From: Candidatus Wallbacteria bacterium GWC2_49_35
GTDB lineage: Bacteria > Muiribacteriota > UBA9980
NCBI GenBank assembly: GCA_001791795.1
Contig: MGFH01000146.1
Location: 1 to 43,094 of the forward strand
DNA: 43,094 bases
Direction: 5' to 3'
Shown: in pieces, positions 3,772 through 33,319 of the stretch
Numbering within the stretch: the stretch's first letter is position 1
How the letters are laid out: the number at the start of each line of letters is the position of its first letter
Position numbers and translations under genes: made by a program
The notes under the pieces: generated by a model
What the model was told of the DNA's origin: nothing
Databases searched by the model: none
What the model saw: the letters and a program-made list of their open reading frames with translations, nothing else

Positions 3772-5505
3772 TTATTGAATTAATTTAACGTCGCATCCAA
3801 TCCTTTTACGGCTCATGAATTCCGCCGCGTCGAGGATATAATATTTATAGCCCTGCTCGGTCAGATAAAGCTGGCGATGCATCGAAAAATCGGCTTCCAC
3901 GGAGTCGGCGGTGACCACCGTATAAAAATGCGCCTCGCGCCCGTCTCTTTTAGGCCGCAGGACGCGCCCCAGCCTCTGCGCCTCTTCCTGCCGCGAGCCG
4001 TAGGCGCCTGAAACCTGTATCGCGCACGAGGCGTCCGGAAGGTCTATCGCGAAATTCGCCACCTTCGAAACTACGAGCGCGGCCAGAGAGCCGCTCTTGA
4101 ATTCGGCGTAAAGTTTCTCGCGCTCCTGCGACGGCGTCGACCCGTTTATTACCGGCGCTCCGAGCGTTTTCGCGATCGCGCCCAGCTGGTCGAGGTACTG
4201 CCCGATTATCAGGATCGGCTCCCCTGGATGGTTTTCAATGATCTTTAAAATGACGTCTATTTTGTCGTGGTTGACTGCGCAGATCCTGTGCTTGTTGGCC
4301 TTTTTGGCCACCGCGTAGTCGTATTTGACGGCCTCCGGCATTTTCAGGCGCACCTCGTAGCAGTTAGCCTTCGCTATATGCCCCTGTTTTTCGAGGCTCT
4401 TCCACGGCAGCTCGTATATTTTCGGGCCGATAAGTGAAAACACGTCGCACTCGAGCCTGTCTTCGCGCACCAGCGTCGCCGTCAGCCCCAGCCGCCTCTT
4501 CGCCTGTATCTGCGCCGTGACGCGAAAGATCGGCGCCGGCAGCAGATGGACCTCGTCGTATATGACAAGGCCCCATTCCCCGTCGGTCAAAAGGCAGAAA
4601 TGCGGGTAGTGGTCGTCGTTTCCCCTGTGCCACATGAGTATCTGGTATGTCGTGACCGTCACCGGCCTGATCTGTTTTTTATCGCCGCTGTATTCGCCGA
4701 TATCCTCTTCCCGAAGGCCCGTCTTATCGCGCAGCTCGCTCATCCACTGCCTCACCGCGACGGTGTTGGTGGTGATGACCAGGGTCCTTGCGCCGACCTT
4801 AGACATCGCGCCTATTCCGACGCACGTCTTGCCCGCGCCGCAGGCCAGCACGACCACTCCGGAGCCGCCCTCGGCCCCGCCCGAACGGTAGAACGCTTCG
4901 CAGGCATCCCGCTGGTAGCCGCGCAGCTCGAACGGCTCGCCGTCGGAAGCTCTGGCCGACCTCAAATTGATATCAAACGGCGCGCCCTCGACGTATCCGG
5001 CGATATCGCGCACGGGATAATTCAGCTTGATAAGCGCGCGCTTGATTTCGCCGCGCGCCCGAGCCTTTATGAGCAGGTTATAATCGTCTTTCTTCGAGTG
5101 GATGAAATCGGCGAAAGCCTGGTTGCCGCATATTTCCATTATAATAAAACGATCCTTCGAATTGAGGTTGAGAAGGCCGTCCGCTCCGCCGCTTTCGAGC
5201 GTCAGTATCCCGTAGCGCGAGCAGTAATAGTTTATTTCATGGATGACGCTCTCCGGTACGCTGAAGCGCGAATAGGCTTTCAGCGTGCGCGTGATATCGT
5301 CCGCGTCCGTTCCGAGGGCGGCGGCGTTCCACAGCGAGACCGGCGTTATCCGGTATGTGTGCATATATTCGGGGGATTTTACGAGTTCCGCGAAAACCGA
5401 TATTTTAGCCCGGCATTCTTCAAAAAGTTCGTGCGCCGCATCGAGCAGCGCGCAAAGGTCGCTCTGGACTATCAATGGCCCGTTTCCGCCCTGATTTTCA
5501 AGCAT
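3772..5505 (-). CDS. XPB/ERCC3-type DNA helicase
   Basis: This 577-residue superfamily 2 helicase has motifs in canonical order: ACGAGKT (221-227, Walker A), DEVH (317-320, Walker B), LTAT (341-344) followed at once by the XPB-specific RED triplet (347-349), and QRLGRVLR (510-517, motif VI). The first 195 residues correspond to the N-terminal damage-recognition region of XPB-like proteins. XPB homologues unwind DNA in repair and transcription; bacterial members are known in several phyla. The gene lies 40 bp downstream of the Hint-like gene and 31 bp upstream of the lipoprotein protease. No nuclease partner such as Bax1 is next to it. Its reading frame is uninterrupted, with no intein. Confidence 0.93.
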   Translation of the reverse strand: MLENQGGNGPLIVQSDLCALLDAAHELFEECRAKISVFAELVKSPEYMHTYRITPVSLWNAAALGTDADDITRTLKAYSRFSVPESVIHEINYYCSRYGILTLESGGADGLLNLNSKDRFIIMEICGNQAFADFIHSKKDDYNLLIKARARGEIKRALIKLNYPVRDIAGYVEGAPFDINLRSARASDGEPFELRGYQRDACEAFYRSGGAEGGSGVVVLACGAGKTCVGIGAMSKVGARTLVITTNTVAVRQWMSELRDKTGLREEDIGEYSGDKKQIRPVTVTTYQILMWHRGNDDHYPHFCLLTDGEWGLVIYDEVHLLPAPIFRVTAQIQAKRRLGLTATLVREDRLECDVFSLIGPKIYELPWKSLEKQGHIAKANCYEVRLKMPEAVKYDYAVAKKANKHRICAVNHDKIDVILKIIENHPGEPILIIGQYLDQLGAIAKTLGAPVINGSTPSQEREKLYAEFKSGSLAALVVSKVANFAIDLPDASCAIQVSGAYGSRQEEAQRLGRVLRPKRDGREAHFYTVVTADSVEADFSMHRQLYLTEQGYKYYILDAAEFMSRKRIGCDVKLIQ

Positions 5506-5545: not shown

Positions 5546-6478
5546 TTATTGAGGTTTGATTATAAAATTATTGATCACGACCGTCGGTTGTTCGGTTTTG
5601 AAAAGGAATACGCGGGTGCGCTCCACCGAGACCCTTATGTCTTTGATCCTTATCCATATATGCGTATCGGAGCAGGGCGTGGGGTTGCTCGATACGTTGA
5701 GCTGGTACTCTTTATTTTTTGTATATATGATATTTGCGAGTTTTTTATTCATGCGGCAGTAAATATACCAGACGACGAACATGAGACGGTCGTCGAGCGT
5801 TGAGGCCGGCCTGGCCGGGTCGAAGAAAAAGCCGTTAAAGATCGCGGACTGATACCTGAGCGGCAGGTGCAGAAGGACAAGCGGGTTTTCTATCAGGGTG
5901 GCCATATAACTCGAAAGGTTAGGGTTGAGAAGTACCGTGCCATTAACGGTAGGTATCTTGTTGATCTCGTCCGGAAACTTGATGAGTCTCATTTCATCCT
6001 GAAATAATTGGAGCGTAATGCGGTTGGCCTCTATTTTAGGCATTTTATCGATCGCGACCCGGTTCAGGATAGCGCCCACGAGGAACCAGAAATTATCTTT
6101 ATCGATGGGAAGGTTGAGCGGAAGCATTTCGGGTATTTCCTGAAGGAAAGGGACCGCCATATATTCATAAATGCTTATGGCGCTGGCTTTTTCGAACCCG
6201 GGCTTTTCGAGATTGGTACGGATGTCTTTCGGATCGCGTGTTTCCAGGAAATCGACGTTCTTGATTCTGTAAACGAGGTGGTCGGGCGTGCATTTAAGCG
6301 TGAAAGGTATCGCTTTAAAGCAGAATTCATAAAAGTATCCGTAATAATCGTCTATGTATGTGGCTAATACGTCTTGAAACTCGCCGTTGCCGTCGAGCAG
6401 CCTGGTAACCTTTTTGATAGATTTCAGCTGCTTGTGGCCTTCCGGCGTTATTATGCTCATGTCTTCGTGTATCGGCAT
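5546..6478 (-). CDS. Stand-alone Hint (intein-like) protein with degenerate LAGLIDADG region
   Basis: The 310 residues resemble an intein with no host protein. Residues 7-20 (SIITPEG) match intein block A without the catalytic Cys1. Residues 45-70 (YYGYFYEF, then LKCTPDHLVY) match block B with the T-x-x-H signature at 64-67. FLVGAILNR (132-140) and RYQSAIFNGFFFDP (208-221) sit where the two LAGLIDADG helices of a homing endonuclease would be, but the acidic catalytic residues are not obvious. RVFLFKTEQPTVVINNF (289-305) matches block F, and the protein ends where the final His-Asn of block G should be. Splicing therefore looks impossible. AGGCGGG lies upstream of the ATG. An in-frame Cys codon three codons before the ATG falls within that ribosome-binding region and has no start codon. 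Function unknown. Confidence 0.6.
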   Translation of the reverse strand: MPIHEDMSIITPEGHKQLKSIKKVTRLLDGNGEFQDVLATYIDDYYGYFYEFCFKAIPFTLKCTPDHLVYRIKNVDFLETRDPKDIRTNLEKPGFEKASAISIYEYMAVPFLQEIPEMLPLNLPIDKDNFWFLVGAILNRVAIDKMPKIEANRITLQLFQDEMRLIKFPDEINKIPTVNGTVLLNPNLSSYMATLIENPLVLLHLPLRYQSAIFNGFFFDPARPASTLDDRLMFVVWYIYCRMNKKLANIIYTKNKEYQLNVSSNPTPCSDTHIWIRIKDIRVSVERTRVFLFKTEQPTVVINNFIIKPQ

Positions 6479-25065: not shown

Positions 25066-25171
25066 AAATTAATATAAAAAGGGGACCTTAAAAAGCGTTC
25101 ATTGCGCGATAATTTTATTTTTGCCGTTCCCGTATTTTAATATGTCTATCTCGATAAAGGCGGATGTTTTT

Positions 25172-26482
25172 ATGCCTGCTGCCGTTGAATTTTTGAATTT
25201 TGAAACCCCGGACGGAGCCCGTTTCCGAAGCGAAGCGTTCAGGCCCTTTACAGCGGCCGCGCTCGTTATTCTAACGGTACTGGCGGCGCTCGCGTTTTTT
25301 TCGGGCGCGGCATTCGCGCAGGGCGACGCGGGGCTTTCGGAGCTCGAGCCTTCCGACGATTACCGTCCCGACGGCTATTACGAGCCTTACGATTTTTCGT
25401 TCGTAAAGACCGCGCCGGCGCCCGAAACTCCTTCGCCCACTCAGCACCCGCTTCCGCCCGAAGCATACGGCCAGCAGCCTTTTACCGGCGAGCAGCCCGA
25501 TTTCACGCCGCCGCAGAACCCGCCGCCCGGCGGCTATAACGATCCGCAGATGAGTCCCGAAGCGCCGGTAAACGCCCCGCCGCCCGACCTCGAGCCGATC
25601 GTCGTGCCCGATCCTCCCGATTTCAATTCCTTGACCGTAGCGCCGTCCCCCGGCCAGCCGAATTCGGTGGTCACCGATTTTTCGACGGTGCAGAACCCGT
25701 TCAACGAAACGGGCGCAGCGCCCGATACCGGAGCTTCCGCTCATCCTCAAAATTTGAATATCAGCTCTGCGCAGCCGGTTTCCAACCCCGCGGCCGGCAA
25801 GGCCGCCGAGGCCCTGAAGTTATTCGTGCGCAAGGGCAAAAAGCCCATCCGCTATAAACTGACCGACGAGGCCATCAGCGCCAATATCGAGCGGATAGTC
25901 GGAGGAAAGAGCCTTCTCGAATCCAACTGGAACGAGCTGCACGACGGCCTTCTGAGCCTCTACAGCGGCGCGGTCTCCAACAACCTGAGCGCCGCCGAGC
26001 CCCTCGACGAGGAGTTCGAGCGCATAAACTCCGTGCTGATGACCTACATGCTCAGCTACGGCGCGCCCGATTTCGACAGCGTCATAATCAAGTACAAAAC
26101 CTATTACTTCGCGTTTTTAGGCCCGCTCGCCGGCGTGCCCACGAATTTCAAGCCTTCCAATCCCGAGGCCAAATACAAGCTCCTGCGCCTTCTCGGCGGG
26201 GACATCATCAAAATCATTTCCGGCAGCACCATAATGTTTTCGCTCAAACCGCTTTCGTTCTGCGTCAGCGACATAATGCGCGAGGTCGCCAACGGCGAAT
26301 TCTACAAGCTCGAGGTCCTTTTCCGCGTAATGACCTCCGCCGACGCGCCCGTGCGCAATCTCGTCCGCCCGTTCTTCCAGCTTCTCAAATCGAAGATCAT
26401 GAGCGCGCGCGACCTCGAAAAATCGCCCGAGCCGCGCGCCAATTATTCAAAGGCGTACGAGCTGCTTAACAAGGTAAAATAA
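25172..26482 (+). CDS. Exported Pro-rich protein of unknown function
   Basis: The 436-residue protein starts with a long N-region and a signal peptide (TAAALVILTVLAALAFFSG, cleaved near AFA at 49). A Pro/Asp-rich, probably unstructured region runs to about 215. A helical C-terminal domain (about 220-436) contains KPIRYKLTDEAISANIERI and LRLLGGDIIKIISG. No family was recognised. The ATG at 25172 is preferred because AAAGGCGGA lies 8 nt upstream. The frame can extend to a TTG at 25121. The giant protein gene follows about 50 bp downstream with no terminator between, so the two are probably one operon and may work together. Confidence 0.82.
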   Translation: MPAAVEFLNFETPDGARFRSEAFRPFTAAALVILTVLAALAFFSGAAFAQGDAGLSELEPSDDYRPDGYYEPYDFSFVKTAPAPETPSPTQHPLPPEAYGQQPFTGEQPDFTPPQNPPPGGYNDPQMSPEAPVNAPPPDLEPIVVPDPPDFNSLTVAPSPGQPNSVVTDFSTVQNPFNETGAAPDTGASAHPQNLNISSAQPVSNPAAGKAAEALKLFVRKGKKPIRYKLTDEAISANIERIVGGKSLLESNWNELHDGLLSLYSGAVSNNLSAAEPLDEEFERINSVLMTYMLSYGAPDFDSVIIKYKTYYFAFLGPLAGVPTNFKPSNPEAKYKLLRLLGGDIIKIISGSTIMFSLKPLSFCVSDIMREVANGEFYKLEVLFRVMTSADAPVRNLVRPFFQLLKSKIMSARDLEKSPEPRANYSKAYELLNKVK

Positions 26483-26534
26483 AACTGCATAAAGTAAAAA
26501 ATAATTTTATAATAAATTAAAAGTGGAGGCGTTC

Positions 26535-29500
26535 ATGGAAAGGGGAACCTTTAAAGCGGCTGCTGTCCGCGTTAATTATAGTGGCGTAATATGGTTGAAG
26601 CCGGCCGCGGCCGTTATCGCGGCCCTGTTTTTTTTAACGACGTTCTTTTCTTTCGCGCCGGCCGCGGCGGAAGACGACGTCACCCTGCCCGGGAAACACA
26701 CGCTCAGGCCCATGTCGAAATTCAAAGTGGTTATGCCTTTCGCCGACATATCGAAGATATTCGAGAACAACCGCATGGTCATGATCGACTACGAAGAGCT
26801 CGACCGGCTCGTCGATAAAAACAACAAGATGATCGCCGAGCGCTATCCGCAGGGCGTAATAAAAGACAAAGAGCCGCCGGCCGATTACATAATAAATTCC
26901 GCGTCGTATAAATTCGTGAAAGACCACGATAACGTACTGTGCGGCCTCGACATCGAATTTTCGGTGCTCGCCGACGACAGATTCGTGCTCGTGCCCCTGA
27001 TAGGCGGCTCGCTCGCCCTCAGCGACGCCGTGATCGATGACACCATACCCGTAATAATATCGGAGCCCCTCACGTCCAAAGGCGAAGATAACGCGGCTCA
27101 GCAGATACAGCAGAGCATAAATTACCAGCAGAACAACATCAACGCCCCGCCCGTCGTGCAGACCTCCGACCCCGACTACAGCTACCAGCGCAACGTCATG
27201 AACGAAGGCGTTTCACGCCGCGCCGGACAGGGCGCCGCGGCTGCCAGCCGCTATTCGCTGCTCGTATCGAAAAAAGGCGCGCACACTCTCAGCCTGCGCT
27301 TCCTGCTGACGCCCAAAAAAGAGGGCGCGCAGTATTCGTTTTTCGTGCTCACGCCGAATTCGCCTAAAAATACGGTGTTATTCATGCACGACAACGCGGA
27401 CGCCGTAATCAAGATGATCCCCGCCATAGGCGAGAGGGCCTTCATACATCCCGAAACTAAAAAACAGGCCCTGGAAGCCGACTTCGGCTTCAGCGAGCGC
27501 CTGCACTTCACCTATTATTCCATAACCGCCGAGGAGAAAAAGGCGATAGAAACCGCCGCCGCGCCCGGCGCTGAATCCGGCACCGGCGAGACCGCTCTTT
27601 CGCCCGAAGACGGCGGCACGCTCGAGATAGAAACCGCCGCCGCGCCCGAAAAATACGAGGCCGAACCGGCCGCCGTGGGCTGCAACGTCAAATCGATATA
27701 TTCGATAGGCGACGGCCTCATACGCGGAAACCACGACATCACCTTCAACATCATAAAAGGCCAGATGTCGAGATTCTCGCTTGAAATGCCCATAAATACC
27801 GATATAGACGAAGTGCTCACCGATAACTACGACAAACGCCAGATCCGCCAGGTACGCACGGCGAACGGCGCCTCCGACTATTCATCGGTCGAGGTGTTCC
27901 TGAAATATCCCGTCACGACTGAATTTAACCTGACGATCACCACCATAACCAAGATCGACGACGCGTCATCCGAGGTCATCATGCCCGAACTCGCGTTCCA
28001 CGGCGTAGAAAGCGAGCGCGGCCACGTGGCCGTATGCGCCCTCACCAACGTGAAGATAGGCCTTTCCGCCGACCCGTTCAACCTCGAGCGCATCGACGCG
28101 CAGGAACTTCCCGAGCGCATAAAATTCTCGGTGGTCTCTCCGATACTCTTCGCGTTCAAATATTACAAGCACCCGTACCGCGCGCGCCTCGCGCTCACGA
28201 AGTATTCCGACTCCGAGGTCCTGGCGAGCGTGCTGACATCCAGCGTCGTCAATACATTTATAACCAGCCAGGGCAGGGCGGTTTCGAGCTGCGAGTTCCG
28301 CATAAAGAATAACGGCATGCCGTTTCTCAAGCTGATGCCCGACGACACCGTCGAAATACTCGACGGCGCGCTGGTGAACGATAAACTGGTAAAGGTTTCC
28401 TACGACCAGGACGCTAATTTCAAGATACCGATAGTCAAATCGCAATACGTCAACGAGGACATACTCGAATATCCCATCAGATTTAAAACATCTTCCGCGA
28501 CTCCGAAACTTTCGATATTCGGCGGCGTTACTCTCAGTCTGCCGCGCACCGAGGTGCCTTCGATGCACCTTAAATGGCGCGTCTATACGGCCGACGGCTA
28601 TATGTTCTACAACATGCGCGGCGTGCCCGACCTGAAACAGACTCCCGCGGTCCCGCTTATCTACCAGATACCCCTTAATTTTATAAACACGCTTGTCGCG
28701 ATATATAAATCGCCGCATTCCGTAAGTTTTCTCATTATCAGTTTTATGATCGTCGTGCTGGCCTTCATCGGCTACGTCATTTACATGGGCGGCGAAAAAG
28801 CATATGAAATGGGCGTTTTCAGTGCAATCTGGAACTTCATATACAACCTTTTCGCCAGGATATTCTCGTTCATATTCAGCCACGCGATAAGCCTGATCAT
28901 TCTCATAGTTATATTAGGCCTGCTCGCCGCCATGAGCGTGCCCAACTTCAACCGCGCGCGCCACGAGTCGAAATCGAAATCGTGCGTGGCGAACATGAGA
29001 ACCATTGAAGGTGCGGTCGAGCTGTTTATGATGGAAAACGGCTCCGTAACGTCGATGGACGTAAACACGCTTCAGAGAATGGGTTATTTGAAAGCCGTTC
29101 CGCAGTGTCCCGACGGATACAGCTACCAGATAGAGATCGGCCGTGGAAGCGGCGCAATGACCGACGTTATATGCCCGAAGCACGGCAGGCTCGGGCTTCA
29201 GGAAACCTCGGATAAAACGAAAGGCCTCGGCGGCGCCAAAGGCGACGAAGGCGGATTCGCCGCCAGATACGATTCCTCGCCCGCCCCGCCCGCTTCTTCG
29301 GTAAGCATGCAGACGTCCAACGAAATGCGCGAAGTGAAAAGCGAAGTCTCGGATCTCGACGAAGAGTCCGACTATAACGCTCCCTCGAAGAAGGGAATGC
29401 GTTCGAAAGACATGAAAGTTTCCGGAAAGGTTCAGTATAAAATGAAGATAAACGCCGAAGACCGCCTGCGCGCCGAGCGCCGTTCCCGGCCCGAAAGCCG

Positions 29501-32500
29501 CGGCATATTCTCTGTGCCGATAGCGCTTCCGAAAACCGGCCATTCGACGGTCGTCGAAAAGCGTTTCGTAATGTCGGGCGAGGAGGTAACATTGAAACTG
29601 TCTTACATGAGCGTTAAAATGTACCGCGCGCTCCTGGCCGTTCTTGTATTCATGGGATTACTGATCCCGTTTGCGGCCTCCCGCGCTCTTTTCAACGCGC
29701 AGGGCGCGCCGCTGTTCATACTGGCGGCGCTTTCGCTGCTGCTCGCCCTCGAAGCCGCCAACGCGATGATACCCGAAACGGCGGGCGCCTCGCAGCTCGG
29801 CATTCTCGCGGGTATAATAATTTTCGCGCTCTCTAAGACCGTCGCGAAACTCTCCAACCCGCGCGTCATGTCGAAGCTGATCGATATGCTTAAAACCCCC
29901 GTTACGTCTACCGATACCGCCGGCACCGGCGTGGTCATTCCCGCCCCCCTGAAAACGGGCGCCGCTGACGCTAAAACTCCCGCCGACGGCGGCCAGACCG
30001 GTCCCGACGGCAAAACGCCCGACGGCGGCGGCAATGGCGGAAACGGCGGCACCGGCGGCGGTCCCGGGCCTAAAACCGGCCTTATCATATTCGTGATCTT
30101 CGCGCTGGCCGCCGCCTTCGCGCTCGCGCCCGTATCCGCCGGGACCGCGCTCGCCGCGCCGCCCGAAAACCATCAGATAGAGCTGAATTACAACCCGTCG
30201 ACCCTCGAGGTGCAGACTTTTTATATGCTCGACATGGCCATGCGCCCGAACGAAAAGAAGGTCATGCTGCCCTATACCGACCTCAAATATCTCATAGATT
30301 CGGTCAACTCGATGGAATACACGGCCGACTCGAAAGAGCTCACCGCGCCCGCCGCGCCCCCGTACCGCGCCATGATCAAAAAAGCCACGCTTACGGGCAC
30401 GATCAAGCTTGACGTCGCCGAGCTCACTCTCGAATATTTCATAGACGTTTTCGACGACAATTACACCGGCGTCGAGCTCATCGGCGGCGACATCGCGCTC
30501 ACCGCGGCCGAATCCTACCTCATCAAGCCCTACAGTTTCGGGTTTTACGGCATGAGCGACAATTACATCGACAAGTTCGAGCGCGCCTACAAGAGCAAGA
30601 CCGACCGCGAAAAAATATCGCGCTACCGTCAGGCGAAATCGTTCGACACGGTATCGCGCTACGAAAACTTCAAGGTCAATCCGGCCGAGCGCAAGTACAG
30701 CGCGCTCTTCGAAGACCCGGGCGAATACATGGTCAAAATTTCCTTCAAAACCAACGTGATATTCAACGACAACGCCTATTATTTCAACTTATACCCCGCG
30801 AAAAGCGCCTGCATGAAGGTTTCGCTCGCGACTCCCGCCGAATACGACCTCATCGCCGACAACATGATAGTCGAATCGCGCGCTAAAGAGGGTTCCGGCG
30901 CCGACGCACGCAATATAACCAGCGGCGGCCTCATTCCCGCCGACGCCTACTCGTTCCGTCTAACGCTCGCCGAGCAGGCCCGCCGCGAACGCGAACGCGC
31001 GAAGCTCGAAGAGGAGCGCCGCATGCGCGAAGCCCGCGAACGTCTTCTGGCGCTGAAAAGCGAAGAGGTCACCGTCATAACCAAGAAGATAGAGCCGCGC
31101 GTTACGCTGGTTTCGGCGTGCCGCCTTACGGTGGACGAGGAGCGGTTCTCGGGTCTGGCCGACTGGCGGTACAACATCCAGAACACGGAATTGCGCGAAC
31201 TCGCCTTCGAGATACCGCGCAACACCATGATAACTCTGGTCGAAGGCGCCGGGGTTTACGACTGGAAGGTCACCGGCGGCGACAACGGCGGCGCAGGAAC
31301 ATCTGAAGCCGCCGCGGCCCCGCGCGAACTGAAGGTAATGTTCAAAAACCCGATACGCGGCGCGGTCAACATCAAGACCGGCTTCGAAACGGAGATATTC
31401 AACATGAAGGCGCCCGTGAAGGTTCCGTTCATAAGGCCGGCCGGCGCCGACGAATACAAGGGTTTTCTCGCCATCGACGCCGCGGTCAACGCCGAAGTGA
31501 GCGTGACCGGCGAGGTCGAGACGAATCTGGTTCCCATAGACGAGAAGGAGATCCCGGCGCTTCCTTCGGGCTACGCCTCGTCGTCGGTGCTTTTCGCCTA
31601 TAAATTCTCGAAAAAGCCCGACAATTTATTACTGGAGATCAAAAAGCACATCGACATAGCGGCCATTCCCTGCGCGATCGACATCGCCAACTATAAAACC
31701 TTCGTCACCCGCGAGGGGCACATGATAACCAGCGCCTATTACGAGGTGCGCAACAACAACGTGCAGTTCCTCGAGCTGAAGCTGCCCGCCGGCTCCGAGC
31801 CATGGAGCCTCAAGGTCGGCGAGCGCCTGTTCAAGCCCGGCTCGGGCAAGGGCGGCGTTATTTACATTCCGCTGCTCAAATCGCCCGACGACGGCCAGAA
31901 CTTCATGCCGTTCGCCGTTTCGCTGGTTTACTTCACGAAAACTCCGGCTTTCGGCGTTATCGGCGGCGGCCGCATGGAACTTCCGCGCCCCGGCGTTTTA
32001 TGTTCGAAGGTGAACTGGGAGATCCATTTCATAGATGAATACAATATGTTCAACTTCCGCACGAACCTGCGCAAGGAAGAGCTGAAAAGTTCCTCCGATT
32101 TCATGGAAAAATCATCGGCGTCGCGCCGCTCGACGGTCTCTATCGAGCAGATGCTTGACATGCAGTATAAGAAGATGGCAGTCACAAACGCCAGGGGCGC
32201 TTACGGTGAAACGCAGAGTTCCGTGCCCGCTTCTTCCGCCGGCGCCGCTTCCTACGGTTCAGGTTCGGGCGCCACGGTCAAATCCAGGATGCCGGTCTCG
32301 ATAACGGTGCCCTCGACGGCCAACGTCCACCATTTCACCGTGGAAAGTCTCGAAAAGATAAACGACGTGAACGACGCCACCGTGTTTTACGTAAAATACT
32401 CGTTCTACTCGAAGCCTGTTTTCGACCTGCTGACTTTTATCGGCTATCTGTTCGGCGTCGCGCTCGTTCTGCTGCTGCTGATCGCGCTGTTTAAAACCGG

Positions 32501-32684
32501 TTCTTACAGGCCTGTTTTGATAACCTTCGCGGTCTCGATCGTGTACGTGTCCGCGCTCGAATATATAACGGGCGGCACCATCCAGTATTTCATGTTCGGC
32601 TTCGTGATGGCGGCGCTTTTATACGCGGCGCACTTCATAGTAAGGCTTAATGAAGAAGAAAGGCGATTTTTAAAGATCAAATGA
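26535..32684 (+). CDS. Giant duplicated envelope protein with embedded pilin-like domain
   Basis: This 2049-residue protein has a signal peptide ending near A45 and two homologous halves. FAFKYYKHPY (539 on) and what follows (TSQGRAVSSCEFRIKNN, LKLMPDD, LSLPRTEVPSMHLKWRV) match FAYKFSKKPD (1687 on, with TREGHMITSAYYEVRNN, LKLPAGS, MELPRPGVLCSKVNWEI). Copy 1 has a membrane segment at about 730-751 and then a type IV pilin-like domain (about 781-885). That domain has LIILIVILGLLAAMSVPNF, SCVANMRTIEGAVE and a C858-C880 pair in PQCPDGYSY...CPKHG. More membrane segments (about 1025-1110), a Gly-rich linker (about 1150-1180) and an internal signal-peptide-like segment (1180-1208, ending ALAA) precede copy 2. 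Copy 2 contains a charged coiled coil near 1475-1515 and ends in several membrane helices. GGAGG precedes the ATG at 26535; a GTG at 26523 overlaps that SD. Function unknown. Confidence 0.85.
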   Translation: MERGTFKAAAVRVNYSGVIWLKPAAAVIAALFFLTTFFSFAPAAAEDDVTLPGKHTLRPMSKFKVVMPFADISKIFENNRMVMIDYEELDRLVDKNNKMIAERYPQGVIKDKEPPADYIINSASYKFVKDHDNVLCGLDIEFSVLADDRFVLVPLIGGSLALSDAVIDDTIPVIISEPLTSKGEDNAAQQIQQSINYQQNNINAPPVVQTSDPDYSYQRNVMNEGVSRRAGQGAAAASRYSLLVSKKGAHTLSLRFLLTPKKEGAQYSFFVLTPNSPKNTVLFMHDNADAVIKMIPAIGERAFIHPETKKQALEADFGFSERLHFTYYSITAEEKKAIETAAAPGAESGTGETALSPEDGGTLEIETAAAPEKYEAEPAAVGCNVKSIYSIGDGLIRGNHDITFNIIKGQMSRFSLEMPINTDIDEVLTDNYDKRQIRQVRTANGASDYSSVEVFLKYPVTTEFNLTITTITKIDDASSEVIMPELAFHGVESERGHVAVCALTNVKIGLSADPFNLERIDAQELPERIKFSVVSPILFAFKYYKHPYRARLALTKYSDSEVLASVLTSSVVNTFITSQGRAVSSCEFRIKNNGMPFLKLMPDDTVEILDGALVNDKLVKVSYDQDANFKIPIVKSQYVNEDILEYPIRFKTSSATPKLSIFGGVTLSLPRTEVPSMHLKWRVYTADGYMFYNMRGVPDLKQTPAVPLIYQIPLNFINTLVAIYKSPHSVSFLIISFMIVVLAFIGYVIYMGGEKAYEMGVFSAIWNFIYNLFARIFSFIFSHAISLIILIVILGLLAAMSVPNFNRARHESKSKSCVANMRTIEGAVELFMMENGSVTSMDVNTLQRMGYLKAVPQCPDGYSYQIEIGRGSGAMTDVICPKHGRLGLQETSDKTKGLGGAKGDEGGFAARYDSSPAPPASSVSMQTSNEMREVKSEVSDLDEESDYNAPSKKGMRSKDMKVSGKVQYKMKINAEDRLRAERRSRPESRGIFSVPIALPKTGHSTVVEKRFVMSGEEVTLKLSYMSVKMYRALLAVLVFMGLLIPFAASRALFNAQGAPLFILAALSLLLALEAANAMIPETAGASQLGILAGIIIFALSKTVAKLSNPRVMSKLIDMLKTPVTSTDTAGTGVVIPAPLKTGAADAKTPADGGQTGPDGKTPDGGGNGGNGGTGGGPGPKTGLIIFVIFALAAAFALAPVSAGTALAAPPENHQIELNYNPSTLEVQTFYMLDMAMRPNEKKVMLPYTDLKYLIDSVNSMEYTADSKELTAPAAPPYRAMIKKATLTGTIKLDVAELTLEYFIDVFDDNYTGVELIGGDIALTAAESYLIKPYSFGFYGMSDNYIDKFERAYKSKTDREKISRYRQAKSFDTVSRYENFKVNPAERKYSALFEDPGEYMVKISFKTNVIFNDNAYYFNLYPAKSACMKVSLATPAEYDLIADNMIVESRAKEGSGADARNITSGGLIPADAYSFRLTLAEQARRERERAKLEEERRMREARERLLALKSEEVTVITKKIEPRVTLVSACRLTVDEERFSGLADWRYNIQNTELRELAFEIPRNTMITLVEGAGVYDWKVTGGDNGGAGTSEAAAAPRELKVMFKNPIRGAVNIKTGFETEIFNMKAPVKVPFIRPAGADEYKGFLAIDAAVNAEVSVTGEVETNLVPIDEKEIPALPSGYASSSVLFAYKFSKKPDNLLLEIKKHIDIAAIPCAIDIANYKTFVTREGHMITSAYYEVRNNNVQFLELKLPAGSEPWSLKVGERLFKPGSGKGGVIYIPLLKSPDDGQNFMPFAVSLVYFTKTPAFGVIGGGRMELPRPGVLCSKVNWEIHFIDEYNMFNFRTNLRKEELKSSSDFMEKSSASRRSTVSIEQMLDMQYKKMAVTNARGAYGETQSSVPASSAGAASYGSGSGATVKSRMPVSITVPSTANVHHFTVESLEKINDVNDATVFYVKYSFYSKPVFDLLTFIGYLFGVALVLLLLIALFKTGSYRPVLITFAVSIVYVSALEYITGGTIQYFMFGFVMAALLYAAHFIVRLNEEERRFLKIK

Positions 32685-33319
32685 GCGAAATGAACCAGTC
32701 ATACATAACTGACGGCGGCGACCTTTTCGGCCAGACCGCGGGCGCCGCCGCCTTCGATTTCAACCGCGAGTACATGGGCGTGGTGCGCGATGTGGCCCGC
32801 GCCTGCGAGGAATTCGGCCACATCGACGCCGATCGTATAGCCGTTTCTTACTCGCTGGCTAAAACCAGCGCGAAGCACGGGCTTCAGGCTAAAATTTACC
32901 CGCTGCGCTTCGAGGGCGGCGCCCGCGAAAAATCGTCGAAAGGGTATAAATTCACGATACCGCCCGTATTTTACGACGGCGTCGAAATCTATTATATAAT
33001 ATCGTTCTGTATTCCGCGCTTTTTAAACCTGTCCATATCCGAAAAACTCGAAACCATAATTCACGAGCTGTTTCACATAAGCCCGCGCTTCAACGGCGAC
33101 ATCAGGCGGCTGTCGATGGGCTCGAAGGCGGCCCACGGCTCGAGTCACGAGATATTCGACCGCTTCGTCGCGAAGATAGTCAAAAGATATTTATATTCCG
33201 GCTCGCGTTCGCTTCTTCCGAAGTTCTTATACATGGATTATAAAAAATTGAAGCAGGCCTACGCAGATATCAAACTCGAAAAGCTCAAAATACCCAAAAT
33301 AATAACGGAAAAAGAGTAA
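32681..33319 (+). CDS. Small HExxH metallopeptidase-like protein
   Basis: The 212-residue protein has IIHELFHISPRFNGD with HELFH at 128-132 and a later HGSSHE, in which H152 or H156 could be the third zinc ligand. This resembles compact phage-type/YgjP/SprT-like metallopeptidase domains. No signal peptide is present, so it should be cytoplasmic. The first 25 residues and the Lys-rich tail look flexible. Its ATG overlaps the stop of the giant protein gene (ATGA), which implies coupled translation and a possible role in processing or quality control of that protein. Confidence 0.8.
   Translation: MSEMNQSYITDGGDLFGQTAGAAAFDFNREYMGVVRDVARACEEFGHIDADRIAVSYSLAKTSAKHGLQAKIYPLRFEGGAREKSSKGYKFTIPPVFYDGVEIYYIISFCIPRFLNLSISEKLETIIHELFHISPRFNGDIRRLSMGSKAAHGSSHEIFDRFVAKIVKRYLYSGSRSLLPKFLYMDYKKLKQAYADIKLEKLKIPKIITEKE

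Follow-up and report, generated by a model that had tools for sequence, protein, structure and literature searches.

A type IV pilin domain embedded in a 2049-residue predicted envelope protein of Candidatus Wallbacteria bacterium GWC2_49_35

Type IV pilins are treated as free subunits that are processed at their N-terminus. What such a domain does when it lies deep inside a large membrane protein is the question raised by one gene of Candidatus Wallbacteria bacterium GWC2_49_35. The gene is carried by contig MGFH01000146.1 (assembly GCA_001791795.1), of which positions 1 to 43,094 (forward strand) were analysed and are here called the window. Its uninterrupted open reading frame (26535..32684, + strand) encodes a protein of 2049 residues (P0001), and residues 782–893 of this protein (28878..29213) are a genuine type IV pilin or pseudopilin domain. 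The genome of origin (G000, 3.67 Mb, 77% complete) was compared with other genomes, of which G001 and G003 are of the same genus; 'phylum' below means that of the compared set, and codes beginning with G, L and C denote genomes, loci and contigs.

Identity and setting of the embedded pilin

A preliminary description of the DNA, made from its letters alone, had pointed to a pilin-like segment, and every residue that it named is exact: F781 (−1), S782 (+1), S786 (+5), G795 (+14), P803 (+22), the NF that follows, SCVANMRTIEGAVE, CPDGYSY and CPKHG. The assignment to the type IV pilins is borne out by several comparisons. A free-pilin profile built from other genera of the phylum, with the window's genus excluded, matches residues 785–890 at 83 bits (i-E 1.1e-25). 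In a shuffling test the real segment scores 88.3 bits and the best shuffled sequence 13.5 (1942 of 2000 shuffles scored, windowed composition kept). ComGC and GspG, two families named in the preliminary description as a check, are both matched in NCBIfam, though below their cut-offs (NF040999, 7e-8, 32.5 of 75 bits; TIGR01710, 1.2e-6, 28.6 of 88.85 bits), and the best sequence match in the PDB is PulG (5wda, 1.1e-7). The segment thus shares with GspG/PulG and ComGC the α1 sequence pattern and the short pilin head, but it scores far below the cut-offs and is not a free subunit. Structure prediction, which had been proposed as a second check, agrees: AlphaFold2, supplied with an alignment of 28 homologues, gives a single long helix (761–835), a short helix (843–848) and two strands (865–868 and 876–880), that is, the long α1 and small β head of a pilin at the level of secondary structure [pLDDT about 80–90 over most of the pilin, mean of 67 for the whole model]. 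The free major pilin of the same genome (G000:C172:15659-16030, 141 aa) is 62% identical over residues 784–900. Unlike the embedded copy it is a free prepilin with an intact AGFTLIELMIV, and it is encoded elsewhere in the genome.

The pilin stands in the middle of the protein, which is ordered as signal peptide, ectodomain 1, transmembrane (TM) helix, pilin, disordered linker, three TM helices, signal-peptide-like TM segment, ectodomain 2 and three TM helices. Translation is taken to begin at ATG 26535 rather than at GTG 26523, because a GGAGG ribosome-binding site (26525..26529) sits five bases upstream of the ATG. The N-terminal hydrophobic segment (residues 23–41, 26601..26657; AlphaFold2 helix 23–39) may be a signal peptide or an anchor. 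Ectodomain 1 (residues 45–725, 26667..28709), predicted to be β-rich, leads into TM helix 1 (residues 727–755, 28713..28799), which by hydropathy and the AlphaFold2 model probably runs from outside to inside. Residues 761–781 (28815..28877) are the equivalent of an uncut leader peptide; they end in F781 and are continuous with α1 of the pilin. Hydropathy would place them in the cytoplasm and the pilin head outside, the normal orientation of a prepilin, which agrees with the earlier proposal of a head held beyond the membrane by a segment still joined to the protein. Within the pilin, α1N spans residues 782–806 and the head cysteines lie in CVAN, CPDG and CPKHG. Behind it follow the linker (residues 894–1005, 29214..29549), disordered in the AlphaFold2 model, and, as placed by hydropathy and structure prediction, the three TM helices (residues 1031–1100, 29625..29834), the signal-peptide-like TM segment (residues 1182–1200, 30078..30134) and, after ectodomain 2 (residues 1205–1960, 30147..32414), the three C-terminal TM helices (residues 1968–2036, 32436..32642).

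The two ectodomains are, by profile comparison, homologous to each other: the ectodomain-1 profile (A3) matches ectodomain 2 of the same protein at 31056–32090 with E 9e-39, and the host is on this comparison a duplicated two-ectodomain protein. No Pfam family covers either ectodomain in the window protein or in any of the homologues scanned, and sequence and profile searches find no relative of them in the PDB. Foldseek returns the same leads for both, namely ribophorin I, the inter-alpha-inhibitor HC1 and the N-domain of M1 aminopeptidases (E 1e-8 to 1e-5, with TM-scores of 0.1–0.33 and large rmsd), and the top 50 matches to the whole model are ectodomain-like leads only. We regard this resemblance of the predicted folds as a lead rather than as membership of any of these families.

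Glutamate at +5 is usual in processed pilins, though not universal. Prepilin peptidase cleaves after Gly or Ala at −1, and E+5 pairs with the free N-terminus (PMC10191384). In the window protein these positions hold Phe781 and Ser786 (codon 28890..28892), as the preliminary description had stated, and the motif begins at residue 782 instead of near the N-terminus, so that it departs from a class III signal peptide in both residues and in position. Two further genomes of the genus have Met (G003) or Thr (G001) at −1, both with Ser at +5. Neither Met nor Thr at −1 is known to be tolerated by prepilin peptidase, and in this genus the embedded pilin apparently cannot be cut free.

The closest described proteins are the modular type IV pilins, such as PilB and PilC of Streptococcus sanguinis, in which a class III signal peptide comes first, the extra module follows the pilin, and the product is cut and built into the pilus (PMC8179133). 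In the window protein, by contrast, the pilin starts only after some 780 residues, which hold the signal peptide, one ectodomain and a TM helix; it is followed by further TM helices and a second ectodomain, it lacks the cleavage residues, and it is not an N-terminal module. In the survey of modular pilins, only modules at the N-terminus were sought (PMC8179133). Searches of the open-licence PMC literature turned up no account of a polytopic protein that contains a pilin, in line with the preliminary description.

Distribution and ancestry of the fusion

The preliminary description had suggested looking for the same fusion in related genomes, and there it is found. Proteins of ~1670–2090 aa from the window's genus, from 17 genomes of Ozemobacteraceae and from G008, G009 and G014 all have a pilin in this position, behind ectodomain 1 and a single TM helix (some Ozemobacteraceae copies are cut by contig ends). 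Ectodomain-profile matches in named genomes are mostly from Candidatus Riflebacteria and Ozemobacteraceae, the nearest being labelled 'UBP16 UBA6123'. Two matches labelled Methylomirabilis and Erysipelotrichia at NCBI contain the same fusion; a third, labelled Akkermansia (L117), gives no pilin match. Ozemobacteraceae also carry 'class B' paralogues with a TM helix at the pilin's place; these show no pilin-profile match that would mark a vestigial pilin helix, though in the G034 copy the distance from E to P resembles that from +5 to +22 in a pilin.

The prepilin-peptidase site has fared differently in the window's genus and in Ozemobacteraceae. Eleven of the 17 Ozemobacteraceae homologues keep G−1, F+1 and E+5 all intact (GFRLxE, as in KGFRLAELMIV and similar); Gly or Ala stands at −1 in 16 and Glu at +5 in 13, and among the homologues E+5 and Gly−1 are mostly retained or lost jointly. 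In the G011 homologue (L063 5262-10613) the helix with G−1 and E+5 is kept and the head is lost (21.8 bits against the pilin profile). The fixed membrane anchor envisaged in the preliminary description therefore fits the window's genus, where G000, G001 and G003 are all without a cleavable motif, and does not extend to the family, in which the embedded pilin of Ozemobacteraceae may be cut.

A tree of 78 pilin domains, short at 129 alignment columns and with many forks without resolution, speaks on the origin of the copies. The embedded pilins of the window's genus nest within the free pilins of that genus (99/86, 100/89), those of Ozemobacteraceae form a group next to the free pilins of that family (81/97), and the G008 copy pairs with the G008 free pilin (100/99). 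By this tree, embedded copies are closer to the free pilins of their own lineage than to one another. A single clade of the embedded copies from the window's genus and Ozemobacteraceae is rejected (AU p 0.0006), and the tree needs at least four changes. In a host tree calculated without the pilin, which has very long branches, the union of the pilin-bearing hosts in one clade is rejected as well (p 0.004). One ancient insertion with plain vertical descent is rejected by the pilin tree. The alternatives are several entries of the pilin at the same site, or an old insertion that the free pilin gene overwrote more than once and that class B has lost. The likeness to the free pilin runs past the head into the C-terminal tail, at the border of pilin and linker (LGLQETSDKTKGL versus LSLQETTDKTKGL in the free pilin), so that the capture took in the mature pilin from end to end.

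Between G000 and G003 the embedded pilin has a dN/dS of about 0.15, against 0.24 for the free pilin (dS is near saturation). Its dN of 0.28 is half that of the linker (0.53) and exceeds that of the ectodomains (0.17 and 0.11). Since its dN/dS is low and near that of the free pilin, and its dN half the linker's, the domain is maintained, not decaying.

A tethered pilin and the mobile-module alternative

Our best explanation, to which we give a probability of roughly 0.45, is docking: a copy of the major pilin, tethered in the membrane, would bind to the pilus or to the pool of pilins. The product would be a polytopic envelope protein whose two homologous extracytoplasmic β ectodomains are linked through the membrane, and in the middle the second membrane helix would be replaced by the major pilin of the lineage in complete form. 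By ordinary pilin–pilin contacts (packing of α1 and contacts of the head) this copy would dock on major pilins in the inner-membrane pool, or on a growing type IV pilus or pseudopilus, and would thereby couple the pilus with the ectodomains, serving as anchor, nucleation point or contact sensor. With the −1 and +5 residues gone, it would act in the window's genus as a permanent, uncut tether. Such an arrangement suggests a protein that may grip or sense the pilus machinery from the membrane.

The strongest support for docking comes from the fixed position of the pilin together with a sequence that follows the local major pilin, since a copy fitting the local filament is expected to track it, and from Gly−1 and Glu+5 being mostly kept or lost together. 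Purifying selection on the domain and the pilus genes of the genome add to it. G000 is pilus-rich, with 38 N_methyl matches, about 11 strong T2SSE ATPase matches and four secretins. The PilB, PilD and PilQ genes named in the preliminary description were only partly recovered: the PilB and PilC families and the secretins are present, whereas PilD was not found by PF06750 in this 77%-complete genome. PF01478 detects a 194-aa A24 protein in G000, and 299-aa Peptidase_A24 proteins in G002 and G003.

Several observations weigh against this explanation. The pilin module also occurs in VIT-VWA and other secreted proteins, some of them without α1N; the class B paralogues of Ozemobacteraceae do without a pilin; the embedded pilin evolves faster than the ectodomains; and no pilus gene was recognised adjoining the fusion gene. 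Moreover, any captured pilin comes from the genome in which it is captured, and its likeness to the pilin of that genome is not enough to demand contact between the two.

The first two of these observations also feed the main rival, which we hold to be possible though doubtful. It takes the pilin to be a general extracytoplasmic module (an anchor, oligomerisation or ligand-binding unit) with no part in a pilus, repeatedly copied from the local major pilin gene and here replacing a membrane helix and adding a small head. By sequence comparison the module is mobile in the phylum, where the three-cysteine head recurs in unrelated proteins, often without α1N. It forms the C-terminal domain of a 474-aa secreted protein of the window's own genome (G000:C197, L077 5460-6881, +), one of the secreted proteins of ~430–570 aa that carry it at the C-terminus or twice (twice in those of 527–568 aa). 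In an 844-aa VIT-VWA protein (L084 1996-4527, G024) the head follows the VWA domain and precedes a hydrophobic segment at the C-terminus, with similar proteins in G030, G032, G018, G039, G021, G023 and G038 (VIT and VWA by Pfam in L084 only, the others by size and pilin flank). A 723-aa reading frame in L089 (G015) has three copies, and a 387-aa reading frame in L192 (G038:C24) carries three tandem heads, in both cases mostly without the hydrophobic helix. With the module in so many secreted proteins, the case for a pilus role merely from being a pilin is weaker, and the existence of paralogues that lack it counts for this rival as well. Against the mobile-module account stand the module's unchanged position within one host family across several lineages and the retention of G−1 and E+5 in Ozemobacteraceae, which would be sensible mainly for a substrate of prepilin peptidase or a pilin that assembles.

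Other pilin-like genes were seen besides these. In L077 the gene after that of the 474-aa protein encodes 385 aa ending in an α1 segment alone. In Ozemobacteraceae a small conserved gene (125–141 aa; L041 10979-11365, L049, L055, L060 and L075) lies near the fusion gene, and its product has a degenerate pilin-like helix without Glu+5 and a cysteine head (E 3e-7 for the G039 copy).

Cleavage, neighbouring genes and the less probable readings

Docking is compatible with a further, somewhat unlikely, reading in which the ancestral precursor was cut at its internal site by prepilin peptidase, an ability that the window's genus lost. The products would be a fragment with ectodomain 1 and a membrane protein headed by the pilin and able to enter a pilus. 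On the docking explanation too, cleavage and methylation may take place at the internal site of most Ozemobacteraceae, with such a pilin-headed membrane protein as the outcome. The intact motif and the Gly or Ala at −1 in that family, a topology as prepilins need it, the survival of G−1 and E+5 in the G011 protein despite its lost head, and the occurrence of A24 peptidases in the phylum all argue for cleavage. The stretch before the site argues against it, being a hydrophobic or amphipathic helix unlike the hydrophilic leader usual in prepilins, as does the absence of the site from the window's genus; nor, to our knowledge, has any internal class III signal been described as cleaved. Rather unlikely is the compound proposal that cleavage in Ozemobacteraceae couples pilus biogenesis to ectodomain sensing in a giant receptor, while in the window's genus the pilin is fixed for good as a dock in the inner membrane that keeps pace with the major pilin. 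An internal pilin whose motif is intact in one family and lost in another raises the questions whether prepilin peptidase can cut inside a large polytopic protein and whether a tethered pilin can join or block pilus assembly, and copies that track each lineage's major pilin would be a natural experiment on pilin–pilin recognition.

The genes around the fusion gene bear on another reading. The next gene (32681..33319, +) encodes a 212-aa protein resembling HExxH metallopeptidases (Pfam below cut-off), and its start overlaps the stop of the fusion gene (ATGA), as it also does in G003. An identical four-base overlap is seen in L046, L049 and L052 between the fusion gene and a gene of Peptidase_M50B type (in L052 at 5584-6273, Pfam E 3e-48). 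The preceding gene (25121..26482, +, 453 aa) stands beside the fusion gene in G003 too. Several Ozemobacteraceae loci have a gene for a TrkA-domain channel upstream and an adenylate/guanylate-cyclase-like gene downstream, a neighbourhood that fits a regulatory setting. The protein might accordingly be read as a membrane sensor processed by the metallopeptidase encoded directly downstream. The shared overlaps and the upstream channel favour this; however, the downstream peptidases of the window lineage and the L052 lineage differ in family, that of the window falls below the Pfam cut-off, and translational coupling is no proof of a substrate. We think regulated proteolysis improbable as the role of the protein.

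Decay is already disfavoured. The loss of G−1 and E+5 and a dN above that of the ectodomains are what a functionless relic would show, but selection has held the domain at a dN/dS of about 0.15, its fold is predicted to be intact, and its cysteines and the motifs SCVANM, EGAVEL, CPDGYSY and CPKHG are common to G003; a relic is thus very improbable.

Chance likeness of a hydrophobic helix and two cysteine motifs, or a chimeric assembly, has in its favour only that Pfam N_methyl does not report the segment, and both are ruled out, the former by the 83-bit match to an independent profile and the fusion kept across the phylum, the latter because G003 has the full protein (71–74% identity) and about 20 further members of the phylum share the identical layout.

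Elsewhere in the window, an XPB/RAD25-like helicase gene lies at 3772–5505 (−).

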